Source of the DNA: Luteibacter yeojuensis
Lineage (GTDB): Bacteria; Pseudomonadota; Gammaproteobacteria; Xanthomonadales; Rhodanobacteraceae
Assembly (NCBI RefSeq): GCF_011742875.1
Contig: NZ_JAAQTL010000001.1
Coordinates: forward strand, 1,736,001-1,800,000
Direction of reading: 5' to 3'
DNA length: 64,000 nt
Under the pieces are notes generated by a model, which did not search any database, was not told where the DNA came from, and worked only from the letters and a program-made list of their open reading frames with translations. A program made the position numbers and the translations under genes. Shown here piece by piece: positions 19,351 through 27,459 of the stretch. Position 1 is the first letter of the stretch. Each line of letters begins with the position of its first letter.

Positions 19351-20151
19351 ATGGCAAAGAAGGCGTCGAGCAAGGCCGCGAAGGCCAGCACGGATAAGCC
19401 GGCCGCAGTGGTGATCGACGCCTTCAAGGGCTTCGACTCGAACTGGCAGTGCCGCGGGTTCCAGTACGAGGTGGGCCAGACCTACTACACCCATGCCAGC
19501 ACGGTCGTGCGGTGCGCGTCGGGCGGGTTCCATTCCTGCGAGAACCCGCTGGACGTGTGGGGCTACTACGGCCCAGCCACGAGCAAGTTCGCCGCGGTCC
19601 AGGCCTCCGGCGCGATCGATAAGGCGGAGAACGAGGACACGAAGATCGCATCGGCGAACATCGCGATTCGGCTGGAGCTTCGCCTGCCGGAGTTCATTAA
19701 GCGCGGCGTGGAGTGGATCCTCGCTGCCGCAAAGAACAATGGAGCCGTGACGACGGGCTACCGCGCCCACGCGGCGAGCACGGGCAACTACGCCCACGCG
19801 GCGAGCACGGGCAACTACGCCCACGCGGCGAGCACGGGCAACTACGCCCACGCGGCGAGCACGGGCAACTACGCCCACGCGGCGAGCACGGGCGACGGCG
19901 CCCACGCGGCGAGCACGGGCGACGGCGCCCACGCGGCGAGCACGGGCGACGGCGCGGTAGCTGCCACCCTGGGGCATGGCGGGCGGGCTAAGGCGGGAAA
20001 GAACGGCGCGATCGTGCTGTCGCGCTGGGTTGAAGCCGAGTCGCGTTACCGCGTGGCTGTCGGCTATGTCGGCGAGAACGGCATCGAGGCCGATACCTGG
20101 TACGGACTGAACGACGAAGGCGAGATCGTCGCGGTGGTGGCCGAGGACTGA
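19351..20151 (+). CDS. DUF7666-like protein with nine-residue tandem repeats
   Basis: A 266-aa protein. Residues 20-120 carry FKGFDSNWQCRGFQYEVG and GGFHSCENPLDVWGYY, the conserved start of a phage protein group I know as DUF7666. Then come seven copies of the nonapeptide AHAASTG-NY/DG (from codon 139) and a degenerate eighth, then a C-terminal domain ending GIEADTWYGLNDEGEIV. The repeats would stack as a small beta-helix. Role unknown. The earliest ATG with a ribosome site is at 19351. Confidence 0.65.
   Translation: MAKKASSKAAKASTDKPAAVVIDAFKGFDSNWQCRGFQYEVGQTYYTHASTVVRCASGGFHSCENPLDVWGYYGPATSKFAAVQASGAIDKAENEDTKIASANIAIRLELRLPEFIKRGVEWILAAAKNNGAVTTGYRAHAASTGNYAHAASTGNYAHAASTGNYAHAASTGNYAHAASTGDGAHAASTGDGAHAASTGDGAVAATLGHGGRAKAGKNGAIVLSRWVEAESRYRVAVGYVGENGIEADTWYGLNDEGEIVAVVAED
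19765..19953 (+). repeat. 27-bp tandem repeat, seven copies
   Basis: Seven in-frame copies of a 27-base unit (GCCCACGCGGCGAGCACGGG plus seven bases) begin at 19765. Copies 1-4 end in the codons for Asn-Tyr and copies 5-7 in Asp-Gly; otherwise they are identical. The near-identity means copy number can change by slippage or recombination. Confidence 0.95.
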
Positions 20152-20157
20152 TCTGCC

Positions 20158-20355
20158 ATGCCGCGCACCCCCGACATGTTCTCCGGCTGGTTCGACAACC
20201 AGATCACGAGGCACCGCGAGTACTGGGACAACGGCCGGATGGGTCGGCATGCCCATCGCTCCGCCATCTGCCCGCACAGCGTGCACCCCGAACTGCGCCC
20301 CGCATGGGGAAGCAATCCGGACTTGCCCACGAATTCCTCGAAGGATGCGGCGTGA
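20158..20355 (+). CDS. Small hypothetical protein before the methyltransferase
   Basis: A 65-aa protein, MPRTPDMFSGWFDNQITRH then Arg/His-rich residues. Its stop overlaps the methyltransferase GTG (GTGA). There is no good ribosome site. Function unknown. Confidence 0.4.
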   Translation: MPRTPDMFSGWFDNQITRHREYWDNGRMGRHAHRSAICPHSVHPELRPAWGSNPDLPTNSSKDAA

Positions 20356-21329
20356 CGGCCTACTACAACGAAATCGAGCCATACGCCGCCCAGTGGCTGC
20401 GCAACCTCATCGACGCCGGGCATATCCCACACGGCGTCGTCGATACCAGGAGCATTGCGGATGTTCGACCCGAAGACCTCGCCGGATTCACCCAGTGCCA
20501 TTTCTTCGCCGGCATCGGCGGATGGGCTCTCGCAGCTCGACTTGCTGGGTGGCCCGACGACCGCCAACTCTGGACAGGCTCCCCGCCGTGCCAGCCGTTC
20601 TCGGTCGCAGGCAAAGGCAAAGCGCAGGCTGACGATCGGCACCTGTGGCCCCACCTTTTTCGACTCATCCGTGCCTGCCGGCCCCATGACTTCGTGGGAG
20701 AGCAGGTTGCGGCGGCGGTTGGCAAGGACTGGCTCGACGGAGTGTTTGCTGACCTGGAAAGCATCGACTACGCCGGGGGGCGGTCGTTGTCCCGGCTTGT
20801 GCCGTCGATGCGCCCCACCGGAGGGATCGCCTGTGGTATGTGGCCCACGCCGCCGACATGTACGGCCAAAGGATCGAGTCCGGCGGCGCTCACCCGAAAG
20901 TCGGGAGCATCGCGTGCGAACGACCGGCTGGATCATTGCGTGCTGGCGACGGCCCTCTGGCCCACGCCAACGAGCCTTGCGCCAGCGAGGGATGGGAACA
21001 ACGAGGCGGGGAACAGCGCAGGGCTCGTAGCGATACGGGCGCACGTTCTGGCCACGTGGCCGACTCCGACCGCATCGCTGGCGGACAAGGGCGTGCGATC
21101 CACTGCGGGAGCTATCAAGGAGGCCATGCGCAGCCACGGCCCGGACTTGGCCGCGATGGCAGTTTTTGGAGCGACGCCTCCTGGATCGTCGGCCACGACG
21201 GAAAAGCCCGGCGCGTTGAACCCAGCATTCGTCTCCTGGCTCATGGGGTTCCCGCCCGAGTGGGACGCCTGCGCGCCGACGGCAATGCCATCGTCCCGCA
21301 AGTCGCGGCCGAAGTCATCGGTGCCCTGA
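20352..21329 (+). CDS. Phage DNA (cytosine-5) methyltransferase
   Basis: A 325-aa product from a GTG at 20352 (VTAYYNEIEPYAAQWLR is the usual start of this phage group). Motif I is CHFFAGIGGWALA, motif IV TGSPPCQPFSVAGKG with the catalytic Cys, and the motif VI area is FVGEQVAAAVG. It would transfer a methyl group from SAM to C5 of cytosine, probably to evade host restriction. After the G6 run at 20775-20780 this frame gives a WPTPT-rich C-terminus ending SWLMGFPPEWDACAP; the other frame gives the remaining classical motifs (see 20780-21367). Confidence 0.8.
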   Translation: MTAYYNEIEPYAAQWLRNLIDAGHIPHGVVDTRSIADVRPEDLAGFTQCHFFAGIGGWALAARLAGWPDDRQLWTGSPPCQPFSVAGKGKAQADDRHLWPHLFRLIRACRPHDFVGEQVAAAVGKDWLDGVFADLESIDYAGGRSLSRLVPSMRPTGGIACGMWPTPPTCTAKGSSPAALTRKSGASRANDRLDHCVLATALWPTPTSLAPARDGNNEAGNSAGLVAIRAHVLATWPTPTASLADKGVRSTAGAIKEAMRSHGPDLAAMAVFGATPPGSSATTEKPGALNPAFVSWLMGFPPEWDACAPTAMPSSRKSRPKSSVP

Positions 21330-21367
21330 TGGACTGCTATCCGGACTACATGGCGGTGGCGGCATGA
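20780..21367 (+). other. Alternative-frame C-terminus of the cytosine methyltransferase
   Basis: One extra base in the G6 run would continue the gene in this frame with AVVVPACAVDAPHRRDRLWY, then HDGKARRVEP, HGVPARVGRLRADGNAIVPQVAAEV. These are the classical motif VIII-like, TRD-side and motif X segments of phage m5C methyltransferases. The frame ends at 21367, where TGA overlaps the ATG of the next gene (ATGA), as expected for the true end of the gene. Whether it is made by slippage, restored by phase variation, or lost is unknown. Confidence 0.6.
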
Positions 21368-21939
21368 AGACCACCACCATCACCCCCGAAGAGTTCGAGA
21401 AGGCCGTGGCCCGCGCGTGCATGAGGGCAATCAACGCCTGGGCGATCATCGACCCCTTGCGCCACGGGGATAAGACGGCCGTCCTCATTGGGCCGCACCT
21501 GCGCGACATCGCCCGCGAGGCCGGGATCTCGATTCCCCAGACGCGCCGGCGCATGCAGAAGCTGATGGAGGCCGGCAAGGTGCTGCGACACGACACCAGC
21601 GGCGGGTCAACGTGCTGGTGGCTCATCGGCCTTGCCGAGGCACCGGGCAACACGGCCACCGCCGTGAAGCAGGCAGCGCCCATGACGATCATGTTGAGCG
21701 CGACCACGCCGGAGCAGAAGGCATCGATCGACGCGCTCCGTCAAGCCGTGACGCCCGCACGCCAGCACTGGAGCGACGTCCTGGGCGTGGCCCGCGACTG
21801 CTCCACCAGCGAAGCGCGCGAAGCCTTCCAGTCCGCCCTTGCCGCGGTGGACGACCTCGACCTCGACGCGGAGCAGCAGCGCCGGCGCATCCGCGATGCC
21901 TACAACGCCCGTCTCGTTGAAGACGGTATTTCGGAGTGA
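21364..21939 (+). CDS. Winged-helix protein with a J-domain-like C-terminus
   Basis: A 191-aa protein. Residues 40-80 (LRDIAREAGISIPQTRRRMQKLMEAGKVL) form a clear winged HTH. Residues 135-185 (HWSDVLGVARDCSTSEAREAF, then RRIRDAYNARL) follow the helix pattern of a DnaJ domain but lack the HPD loop. It might regulate transcription or bind DnaK weakly; this is inference. Its ATG overlaps the stop of the alternative methyltransferase frame. Confidence 0.55.
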   Translation: MKTTTITPEEFEKAVARACMRAINAWAIIDPLRHGDKTAVLIGPHLRDIAREAGISIPQTRRRMQKLMEAGKVLRHDTSGGSTCWWLIGLAEAPGNTATAVKQAAPMTIMLSATTPEQKASIDALRQAVTPARQHWSDVLGVARDCSTSEAREAFQSALAAVDDLDLDAEQQRRRIRDAYNARLVEDGISE

Positions 21940-23073: not shown

Positions 23074-23336
23074 GCACCGAACTGAAAGCTTTCCAGTGCG
23101 ACGAAACCGAGCTTTTCGCCGCGGTCAGCGCCGAGCAGGCCGCTGAGTTGTACGAGGATTGGACGGGTGAGGCGCCGGAAGCGCCTTATCCGGCCGAACT
23201 CACCGATGCCCAACTGGACGAGCCGATTCCCGATTTCGACGAGGACGAGAATCCCACCGGCGAGATGACGAGCGTGCGGCAGTTTCTCGCCGAGCACGGC
23301 GACGAGCCGGGCTGGCTTGCGGGGAGCATGGGCTGA
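23070..23336 (+). CDS. Small acidic hypothetical phage protein
   Basis: An 88-aa strongly acidic protein (DEPIPDFDEDENPTGEM), a charge pattern shared with DNA-mimic proteins but also with many phage orphans. TGATG couples it to the next gene. No family recognised. Confidence 0.45.
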   Translation: MSTELKAFQCDETELFAAVSAEQAAELYEDWTGEAPEAPYPAELTDAQLDEPIPDFDEDENPTGEMTSVRQFLAEHGDEPGWLAGSMG

Positions 23337-24661
23337 TGAGCACGAAAGAGACGATGACGCTGAAGCAGCTTCGCGACCAGATACAGGCGTTCGCCACTCA
23401 GAAGCCGCGCGATACGGAATCCACGAACTACTACGTCGAGATGAACGTCTTGCTCTTGGACGACTGGTGGAAGTCTATCGACGCCCACCTCGCCTCCCAG
23501 CCTGCCGAGCAGCCGAGGGGCTTGCGTAATTACATCCTAAAGGCGTTGGGCGGCTACTTGGAACGGCATTGGCCCGATAGCCCGGTGAATTATGACGATA
23601 TGGCCGACTACATTACGCAAGCTTTGCCTGCTGACCAGCCGAAGCCCGAGCAGGCGAAATGCGTCGTGTGCGACGAGCCGAACACCTACGACCCCGAGAG
23701 CGGCGTCTGCCTCCGCTGCCAAGGCATCGAGGAACGGAAGCCCGAGCAGGTGGTGGGCGATGGGGTGGTGGTCGGATACATCCGCGAACAGGATGTTGCG
23801 CACCTGAAAGGCGGAAACCGCAATGACTGGCGATGGTCGTACATTGCGAGCGCCCCGAATGAAAGTCACACACTACCCGTCTACACCGCCCCTCGCCCGG
23901 CTGTCGCCACTCCTGCCGAGGTGACGGAGGAAAGCGAGATTTGCGTGAAAGACTTGAAGGTGTTGCCGGCTTACACCGTCTCGTGGAATTACGAAGAGCT
24001 ACGGCCGACTTCCGCTCCTGCTGCTGATTCTGCTGTAGGCGCTACCGTAGTCATTCGCTGGGAGGATTACGATGCCGCCCTCACCGCCCAATGCCAGGTC
24101 CGCAAGGATGGGCAGGGGGTGGCGAGTTGCGATTGGCCTGCTGGAAATTCCTTCACCGTACTGGACGACCCGGACGAGCATAAGCCGTGCTATCTGGTCA
24201 TGCCTGACGGCGCTGCATTGCCCTTGTGCCACCACGCAACGAACGGCGTCGATCAAGCGCGGGCGAAATTTATCGCCGACGCGTGCAACGCCGCCCTCGC
24301 CTCGCCCAGCGCCGGGGCGGTGGTGCCGGAGGATCTGGCTCGCGACGCGACCAGGTATCGGAAACTGTGCAATTCGCAGATGGGGGTTCCCGGCGTTGCC
24401 TGCATCGCGCTTCCTTCCGGCCCCCGTAGCGGGGACTACGTGACCGCGGAAGACGCCGATGCTGCTGTCGATGGTCTTCCGTTGCCCGACCCACGCGATG
24501 CAATTGAATCGAAGCTCCGCGATGCCCTGATCCCCTTCGAAATCGCGCACAACGTTGCTGGCCCAGAGACCGAATACGCGCGTGGATATGGGGACGCTTG
24601 CGGGGACATTGTAGCGGCCATGCGACCTCTGCTCGCCGCCGCGCCGGAGGTGCAGTCGTGA
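23336..24661 (+). CDS. Modular Ead/Ea22-like phage protein
   Basis: A 441-aa mosaic protein. Residues 108-128 form a zinc ribbon (CVVCDEPNTYDPESGVCLRC). Other blocks, such as ADACNAAL near residue 318 and ARDATRYRKLCNSQMGVPG near 338, occur in many phage Ead/Ea22-like mosaics. Low-complexity linkers join the blocks. The cell role of this group is unknown. It overlaps the next gene (GTGA). Confidence 0.5.
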   Translation: MSTKETMTLKQLRDQIQAFATQKPRDTESTNYYVEMNVLLLDDWWKSIDAHLASQPAEQPRGLRNYILKALGGYLERHWPDSPVNYDDMADYITQALPADQPKPEQAKCVVCDEPNTYDPESGVCLRCQGIEERKPEQVVGDGVVVGYIREQDVAHLKGGNRNDWRWSYIASAPNESHTLPVYTAPRPAVATPAEVTEESEICVKDLKVLPAYTVSWNYEELRPTSAPAADSAVGATVVIRWEDYDAALTAQCQVRKDGQGVASCDWPAGNSFTVLDDPDEHKPCYLVMPDGAALPLCHHATNGVDQARAKFIADACNAALASPSAGAVVPEDLARDATRYRKLCNSQMGVPGVACIALPSGPRSGDYVTAEDADAAVDGLPLPDPRDAIESKLRDALIPFEIAHNVAGPETEYARGYGDACGDIVAAMRPLLAAAPEVQS

Positions 24662-26460: not shown

Positions 26461-27305
26461 CGCATGGTGTCCGTATTCTCGCTCGCCTCCCGACTGTTCG
26501 TGCGTACCTGGAGTGGTATTTGGACTGGTACGAGAGCGAGCACCCCACCACCGCCGGCAAGGCCAAGAGCGAGGTGAAGCGCTTTATCGAGCGATTCGGG
26601 GCCAGGCCGATCGACACCCTTCGGCCGACGGAGATGGAGGGCTACAAGCGGGACCGCCTCAAGATCGATCGCGCAGCGGCGGAGACGGTGGGAAAGGAAA
26701 TGCGGAGACTGAAGGCGGCATTCCGCCGCGGCGTCGAGTGGGAAGAGATCGACGCGAACCCGCTGGAGAAGGTGAAGGCGCCACGCGGCGTTCGAAGCGT
26801 AGCTGTGCGCTTCTACGGAGCCGAGGACATGGCCGCCCTGTATGCGGCGAGGCCGGCGCGCGCGGCGCTATGGGCATTCATGGCCCACACCGGGCTGCGG
26901 CGCGGCGAGATGTGCAAGATGCGCAAGGCCGATGTCTTCGCCGGCGTGCTCCGTGTCGAGTCCGATCCGGACGAGGACGGCGACGGCCGCACGAAATCGG
27001 CCCGGTGGCGGGAGGTTCCCCTGAATGAAAAGGCTCGAGCAGCACTCGATCTGCTGCCAGACCCGCCCGTGGGTGTGCACCCTGATACCCTCTCGGACTG
27101 GTTTGCGGCCGACGCGAAGCTCGCCGGGATCGGAGGGTCGCTCCACCGGCTCCGCCATACCTTCTGCGCCCACCTGGCCATGGCCGGCGTACCGCTACGC
27201 CGCATCCAGATCTTGGCCGGGCACAGCGACTACAAGATCACTGAGAAATATGCCCATCTGGCGCCCGGTGGCGCCGACGCCGCGGTCGCCAAGCTCACCT
27301 TCTGA
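26325..27305 (+). CDS. Tyrosine integrase of the prophage
   Basis: A 326-aa product from a TTG at 26325. The N-terminal half includes a SAM-like core-binding domain (residues 57-150). Catalytic residues are visible: Arg in HTGLRRGEMC (R192), HRLRH (H274, R277), H300 in LAGHSDYK and the nucleophile Y309 in TEKYAHL. It recombines attP with the tRNA-Arg gene 78 bases downstream. It is the last gene of the PL operon. Confidence 0.93.
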   Translation: MATIYWRGDRAYLNWRENGRQVRLSLGAVDAREAERIRAAKEAELTHGVRILARLPTVRAYLEWYLDWYESEHPTTAGKAKSEVKRFIERFGARPIDTLRPTEMEGYKRDRLKIDRAAAETVGKEMRRLKAAFRRGVEWEEIDANPLEKVKAPRGVRSVAVRFYGAEDMAALYAARPARAALWAFMAHTGLRRGEMCKMRKADVFAGVLRVESDPDEDGDGRTKSARWREVPLNEKARAALDLLPDPPVGVHPDTLSDWFAADAKLAGIGGSLHRLRHTFCAHLAMAGVPLRRIQILAGHSDYKITEKYAHLAPGGADAAVAKLTF

Positions 27306-27440
27306 GGGTGTGCTTACTGTGCTCAAACGGCGGCGATTTGTGGCGGAATATGGAATTCACGCCAGCCGGAAACGGCTTGAAATGGTGACCCCGGCCCGAT
27401 TCGAACGGGCGACCTTCCCCTTAGGAGGGGGACGCTCTAT
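27306..27440. other. Right attachment-site region of the prophage
   Basis: The prophage ends between the integrase stop and the tRNA-Arg. The tRNA 3' end (27383 onwards) faces the prophage and is intact, so the crossover core should lie within the 3' half of the tRNA gene, about 27383-27425. The partner copy is outside the window, and the exact core cannot be fixed. Confidence 0.6.
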
Positions 27441-27459
27441 CCAGCTGAGCTACGGGGCC
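27383..27459 (-). tRNA. tRNA-Arg(CCT), prophage integration target
   Basis: A 77-base tRNA on the minus strand. GGCCCCG pairs with CGGGGTC, CCA is encoded, the anticodon loop CTCCTAA gives CCT (reads AGG), and the T arm has GGTTCGAATC-type sequence CGTTCGAATCG. The integrase beside its 3' end marks it as the attachment gene, and the prophage has preserved its function. Confidence 0.95.

Follow-up and report, generated by a model that had tools for sequence, protein, structure and literature searches.

The two genes of M.EcoHK31I reportedly overlap in different reading frames. This C5 methyltransferase of E. coli (YGGCCR) is formed by two polypeptides (Lee, Kam and Shaw 1995, as given in an excerpt of PMC3404938); in the same excerpt the large polypeptide carries motifs I to VIII and X, together with the predicted recognition domain, and the small polypeptide carries motif IX. 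The locus is placed in an E. coli island in an excerpt of PMC6174562. M.AquI, a split C5 methyltransferase, likewise makes one enzyme of two polypeptides but, unlike the phage pairs described here, has its break inside the variable region, so that the small subunit holds both motif IX and motif X (PMC3404938, excerpt). Here, we analyzed a 64,000-nucleotide stretch of a Luteibacter yeojuensis genome (contig NZ_JAAQTL010000001.1, positions 1,736,001 to 1,800,000; hereafter, the window). We hold with considerable confidence that it contains a prophage-borne locus for a cytosine-5 DNA methyltransferase whose family is built from two nested genes, alpha and beta, presumed to encode two subunits, and that the copy in the window is frame-disrupted as assembled.

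A run of six G residues occupies positions 20775-20780. The frame that is open across it starts at ATG 20304 or GTG 20352, ends at the stop codon 21327-21329 and encodes, in order, a methyltransferase N-terminus, WPTPT and LNPAFVSWLMGFPPEWDACAP. The second frame, read natively from 20780, gives VDAPHRRDRLWYVAHA, then GHDGKARRVEP and GNAIVPQVAAEVIG, and ends at a stop codon (21365-21367) that overlaps the ATG at 21364 as ATGA. In profile searches, the N-terminal piece (20304-20780) matched PF00145 (8.9e-11) and phrog_363 (3.3e-57), the family that was also matched by the second-frame tail with its GNAIVPQ (phrog_363, 1e-18; phrog_32758, 1.7e-9); the open-frame tail, with WPTP and LMGFPPEW, matched phrog_1008 (5.8e-17) and phrog_31772 (4.3e-14). 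These matches bear out the first-pass annotation of this DNA, which had recognized a methylase N-terminus in one frame up to the G6 run, an m5C methyltransferase C-terminus in the second frame, with its stop overlapping the next start, and a phage DNA methylase C-terminus in the WPTPT tail of the open frame. A tblastn search with both translated tails, which it had suggested, returned homologues of each (185 phage records for the GNAIV tail and 122 for the WLMGFP tail), so that the possibility that just one of the two frames has homologues falls away. Among the matches listed (best 60 per tail), both tails were found at overlapping sites of one record, for example in phiEc3, H5 and H78. Moreover, and unnoticed in the first-pass annotation, the protein of the second family is encoded 5' of the G run too, from an ATG at 20461 in the +1 frame. 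The features of the locus are as follows:

20352..20780, + strand: alpha N-terminal part, matching the m5C methyltransferase catalytic core (GTG start at 20352, in-frame ATG at 20304; alpha profile 2-142, E 1.7e-90)
20448..20453, + strand: AGGAGC, presumed ribosome-binding site of beta, formed by Arg-Ser codons of alpha (GGAG arises from the same codon pair in relatives)
20461..20463, + strand: ATG, presumed beta start, 13 nt past the first base of AGGAGC (like spacing in 252/334 relatives)
20461..20778, + strand: beta N-terminal part, +1 frame relative to alpha (beta profile 1-105, E 5.5e-50)
20775..20780, + strand: G6 run, the frame-change point of both alpha and beta (from the sequence and the profile boundaries)
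20780..21367, + strand: alpha C-terminal part in the other frame, with GAPHxRxR-like (motif VIII) and GNAIVPQ (motif X) stretches and stop 21365-21367 (alpha profile 144-312, E 1e-39; phrog_363, 1e-18)
20781..21329, + strand: beta C-terminal part, with WPTP modules and LNPAFVSWLMGFPPEW, as assembled in frame with the alpha N-terminus (beta profile 108-273, E 1.3e-49; phrog_1008, 5.8e-17)
20352..21329, + strand: merged ORF as assembled, alpha N-terminus plus beta C-terminus (ORF reading; database protein P0003 is identical)

By profile, alpha and beta of the window are both nearly complete, and each is divided between two frames at the G6 run, so that the merged ORF joins the alpha N-terminus to the beta tail. 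The merged ORF lacks the alpha segments that bear the motif VIII-like and motif X stretches, and no unbroken protein of the window holds all ten C5 motifs, the alpha profile being split at the run; the numbers given to the alpha segments (VIII, X) and the labels of the ten motifs are those that we take to apply. As assembled, and judging from the sequence, both genes look broken and the merged ORF is probably inactive. Protein P0003 very likely comes from the same assembly as the window.

Relatives were gathered with an N-terminal alpha query only, so that neither tail was favoured. In nearly all of the first 160 loci (80 viral and 80 genome loci, the best 80 per scan), the N-terminal frame runs towards GNAIV, and the +1 frame is open alongside it, with WPTP repeats and LMGFP; in the 60 loci inspected for this, the +1 frame was open upstream to typically 58-115 nt past the alpha start. 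Alpha and beta profiles (A1, A2), built from alignments of both genes, were used to classify the loci from seven N-terminal scans (best 80 each; 560 loci in all, from which 97 duplicates by alpha DNA, 29 loci without a readable C end and 2 alpha-only loci were removed). Both frames are intact and nested in 418 of the 432 distinct evaluable loci; the other 14 comprise eight joint shifts of both frames and six others, including single-frame or divergent forms. Thus, the two tails in the window are the ends of two nested genes and not alternative tails of one protein. The earlier view that one stretch encodes two family C-termini stands insofar as both families are real, but the two are not ends of one enzyme.

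Alpha (phrog_363, PF00145) is the catalytic m5C methyltransferase; nested in it, in the +1 frame, is beta (phrog_1008, without a Pfam family). Both PHROG families carry the name 'DNA methyltransferase', which gives no hint that they share DNA in two frames. All 71 alpha proteins of relatives that were searched matched PF00145, and the HhaI methylase was also matched by profile. The nested arrangement was found by profile in 17 named records, including three E. coli prophages, epsilon15, BcepC6B, K1ind1, Krischvirus Aragogtheria, Paenibacillus phage Toothless, and a Synechococcus, an Acinetobacter and a Tunturiibacter phage. As a separate observation, two nested alpha/beta pairs stand in tandem on one phage contig in L030 (903-1892 and 2998-3984) and in L099 (1281-2057 and 2759-3644).

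The window is 65.5% GC, a composition at which open alternative frames are common, and the second frame could be seen as a by-product of GC-rich codon usage. We regard this explanation as almost certainly wrong, as it is contradicted by synonymous shuffles, by a selection contrast, by embedded start signals and by nesting at 46-50% GC, and we rejected it on the shuffle and selection tests. In 155 loci, the beta frame contains 20 stops against 586 expected from synonymous shuffles (third frame, 1846), and WPTP-like motifs occur in it at 2.5 per locus against 0.52. In 14 named loci, the observed open length was reached by 0-35 of 1000 shuffles (for L198 and L209 we placed the coordinates by hand, guided by profile hits, and L198 so delimited includes one alpha stop in its interior); for the three loci of 46-50% GC, the figures were 0, 0 and 1 of 1000.

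Beta is also under purifying selection. Over 51 pairs, its dNN/dNS was 0.63 in the N half and 0.57 in the C half, against 1.17 and 1.07 in the control third frame; the 140 loci of this first test had passed filters biased towards long open beta frames. Alpha itself gave 0.57 in the C half, so that beta is about as constrained as alpha there. Four further sets (28, 15, 23 and 10 pairs) gave 0.27, 0.71, 0.39 and 0.41 for beta and 1.83, 1.08, 1.52 and 1.29 for the control; they were deduplicated among themselves and not against the first set, and are thus not fully independent of it. The estimator is a simplified one of our own, with no transition/transversion correction, and since the control frame rose to 1.83 in one set, only the contrast between beta and control is used.

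The start of beta is marked as well. The Arg-Ser codons of alpha ahead of the beta ATG form GGAG in 187 of 334 loci, against 51.5 expected from codon usage, and AGG makes up 122 of the 334 Arg codons at this site, against 10% overall. The first beta-frame ATG follows 13 nt on in 252 of the 334 loci, and SD-like signals lie ahead of 201 of 278 such beta-frame ATGs, against 19% of control positions. Beta is predicted from these signals to have its own ribosome-binding site and ATG inside alpha. This bears on programmed ribosomal frameshifting, in which an alpha-beta fusion would be the normal product of the family. In most relatives the second frame is indeed +1 and stays open through the junction, but beta is conserved and selected far 5' of the junction and has its own SD and ATG, and no constant slippery site was seen by eye in the junction DNA of 40 relatives; we give frameshifting a very slim chance.

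Searched against Pfam, beta had no convincing match (best E 0.026, each family in just 1 of 80 members); searched against PDB, the whole of beta matched no methylase and had no convincing relative. In the relatives, alpha contains motifs I to VIII and X (profile, conserved columns), and most relatives have a motif IX-like segment in the beta frame. The phage pairs would share the division of motifs described for M.EcoHK31I in the excerpt of PMC3404938, I to VIII and X on the large polypeptide or alpha and the IX-like segment on the small one or beta, a likeness of motif layout taken from that description. An overlap in different frames, as is said of M.EcoHK31I, is found in the 418 of 432 phage loci; the window has both frames too, in switched form. 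The likeness has limits. The WPTP modules lie in beta, whereas the recognition domain of M.EcoHK31I is assigned to the large subunit (PMC3404938, excerpt), and M.EcoHK31I is part of a restriction-modification system, whereas the two ORFs following the window locus contain no restriction gene. No copy of M.EcoHK31I was identified among the E. coli and plasmid hits.

The position of the motif IX-like segment itself varies. LMG.P is present in beta of 125 of 155 loci, but in 11 of 80 divergent loci (duplicates not removed) a motif IX-like LNPxFVE(W/Y)MMGLP lies in the alpha frame, with a motif X-like match in the same ORF (L509, L510, L513, L515-L518, L521, L522, L524 and L526); the pattern used missed 41 of the 80. 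L509 and L521 were read through and show the motifs in the order VIII-like, IX, X, and the beta profile still matches in the +1 frame in all 11 loci except L509, weakly in L521. These loci lend support to a motif IX in beta. Motif IX may thus be carried by either frame, the body of beta keeping to the second, and these loci are possible intermediates in the evolution of the overlap. On the other side, a profile of the motif IX-like segment matched no methylase in PDB. Beta being without a clear Pfam or PDB relative, the assignment of motif IX rests on position and on what we take to be its consensus.

The first-pass annotation had further proposed a single methylase gene with alternative C-termini, whose specificity or activity could be switched by slippage at the G run. 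Both tails do match real families, and joint shifts of alpha and beta (8 of 432 loci) go together with G runs: a run of at least six G lies in the overlap in 5 of the 8, against 51-66 of the 418 kept loci depending on the size of the segment considered (Fisher p 0.001-0.004 over three sizes; small numbers, uncorrected). The run sits at the shift in L043 (G7), L149 (G7) and L159 (two G6); L282 has no run of at least five in the stretch examined and L357 has T6. Junctions were read at these five of the eight loci, the other three being L539, which carries G8 and G9 runs, L543 and L599. Set against a switch between two tails, beta starts on its own as a separate gene, and its N-terminal half, 5' of the junction, is conserved; on these grounds we rejected one gene with two tails as the main reading. 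Nor is there a conserved G tract at the junction: over 160 relatives, the longest run at the place of the G6 run has a mode of 4 (range 1-6), and no conserved long repeat tract of the phase-variable type was seen there. Runs of at least six G number 30 in alpha against 39.7 expected from synonymous shuffles; their density is twice that of the flanking DNA (0.189 against 0.090 per kb). A conserved slippery tract at the junction is rejected on the modal length of 4 and on G runs not exceeding shuffles, and as the relatives keep no G tract there, an evolved specificity switch finds no support; we judge the two-tail switch very unlikely. The window resembles the phasevarion methyltransferases (PMC3711429, as excerpted) in having a homopolymer at the frame-change point but differs in that no long conserved tract is kept at the junction in relatives and in that two overlapping genes change together.

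Since the joint shifts are enriched for G runs, slippage, biological or technical, is a likely cause of the frame changes, and it is a plausible cause of the one in the window. The technical variant, in which the pair is intact in the isolate and changed only by an assembly or sequencing error, concerns the cause and not the nested genes. It has a real chance of being correct, if somewhat short of even: the frame change of the window sits in a homopolymer, and nearly all of both profiles is still encoded, as expected of an error or of a very recent change, but joint shifts also occur in 8 of 432 other loci, some of which may be errors as well. No close copy of the window prophage in which to read the G run was found in 22 other genomes of the genus or in 232 others of the family, and a search of viral contigs by exact flank gave none close enough.

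Proteins merged in the manner of the window ORF are found elsewhere. Among the best 120 of 7999 database matches, 39 are chimeras of an alpha N-terminus and a beta C-terminus, the window's own included, a count biased by the query being itself chimeric. The joins are scattered, and one cluster (P0023, P0024, P0026, P0030 and P0034) reads GGRMRDGKISTDTL at the join. Might the merged protein be a working single-chain enzyme? Speaking for it, 38 of the 119 other listed proteins are chimeric and several are joined after the motif VIII-like segment; against it stand the bias of the list, joins that scatter along the gene in chimeras that are mostly represented by one member on one contig, and the absence from the window chimera of the motif VIII-like and motif X segments of alpha. 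We consider a single-chain enzyme quite unlikely, and keep to a nested pair disrupted by the frame change. Separately, a G-rich beta module (GGRMRD...) with G runs of 8-9 is present in L046, L539, L548 and proteins P0023-P0034. In L046, which keeps both frames, the module that reads GGRMRDGKISTDTL in the P0023-type proteins carries G8, and P0030 has one Gly more than P0023 at this module. Run length may thus vary in that lineage, near-identical chimeric proteins differing by one Gly.

The window includes part of a temperate prophage, as judged by PHROG profiles on 20 chosen ORFs: genes for a portal protein, terminase, minor tail protein, endolysin, Q-like antiterminator, DnaB-like helicase, CII-like and CI-like regulators and an integrase were recognized, and the methylase sits between repressor and integrase. 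The integrase ORF (26574-27305) adjoins a tRNA-Arg gene (27383-27459, minus strand), and this junction is likely an attachment-site edge of the prophage. ORF 19351-20151 (phrog_4433, function unknown) contains a 27-bp tandem array (19753-19947; 7.2 copies, 96% matches). Two ORFs beside the methylase (21364-21939 and 23336-24661) had no PHROG match at E 0.001. The first ORF after the methylase had no PHROG match and the second matches phrog_14517 and a DNA-repair family; neither of the two had a PADLOC match.

Existing records annotate the pair unevenly. Both genes are annotated in Escherichia phages K1ind1 and fTaEco01, in PhiXhv-28 and in Paenibacillus phage Toothless. The nested CDS of K1ind1 and fTaEco01, named 'Mte8-like' or 'putative methyltransferase', and the nested 'DNA-cytosine methyltransferase' of Toothless are the same nested beta gene, the name 'Mte8-like' being taken from annotation only; in these three phages both frames are intact, unlike in the window. 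Alpha only is annotated in, for example, BcepC6B, epsilon15 and the three E. coli prophages, and beta only in, for example, PMG1 and W5_chr3; most beta relatives are nameless among the 120 matches listed. In the record of Pseudomonas phage PMG1, where beta alone is annotated, alpha shifts frame near its own N-terminus, 5' of the beta start. In the literature searched, mostly open-licence, we found no paper on nested beta/methylase genes in phages.

In our reading, alpha carries the catalytic core, with motifs I to VIII and X. Beta would start some 110 nt into alpha, from a ribosome-binding site that belongs to it alone; it extends in the +1 frame almost as far as alpha does and carries the WPTP modules and the motif IX-like segment. 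By analogy with M.EcoHK31I, alpha and beta may form a two-subunit methylase, in which beta would supply or complete the target-recognition small domain; we infer that the two bind and methylate jointly, and such an enzyme could protect phage DNA from restriction. Since alpha and beta overlap side by side and beta has its own start signals, a single frame change breaks the two proteins together. A bolder scheme, in which many phage C5 methylases are coupled two-subunit enzymes with a nested recognition subunit and a frame-mobile motif IX, and slippage at G runs flips both proteins or makes an active chimera, seems to us rather improbable.

As assembled, the window locus represents a widespread methylase of two nested genes in a frame-disrupted copy. 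Of modest interest on its own, it led to the finding proper, a conserved hidden gene: a gene of a few hundred codons, conserved and selected inside a common phage methylase, and often either missing from the annotation or entered there instead of its host gene. One frame change in such a pair hits two proteins and yet leaves a long ORF that resembles an intact gene. Should both halves be required, many of the phage methylases now annotated would be only half described, a cloned alpha may look inactive, and methylation motifs could not be predicted from alpha alone. The family also constitutes a large natural data set for two proteins evolving on the same DNA.
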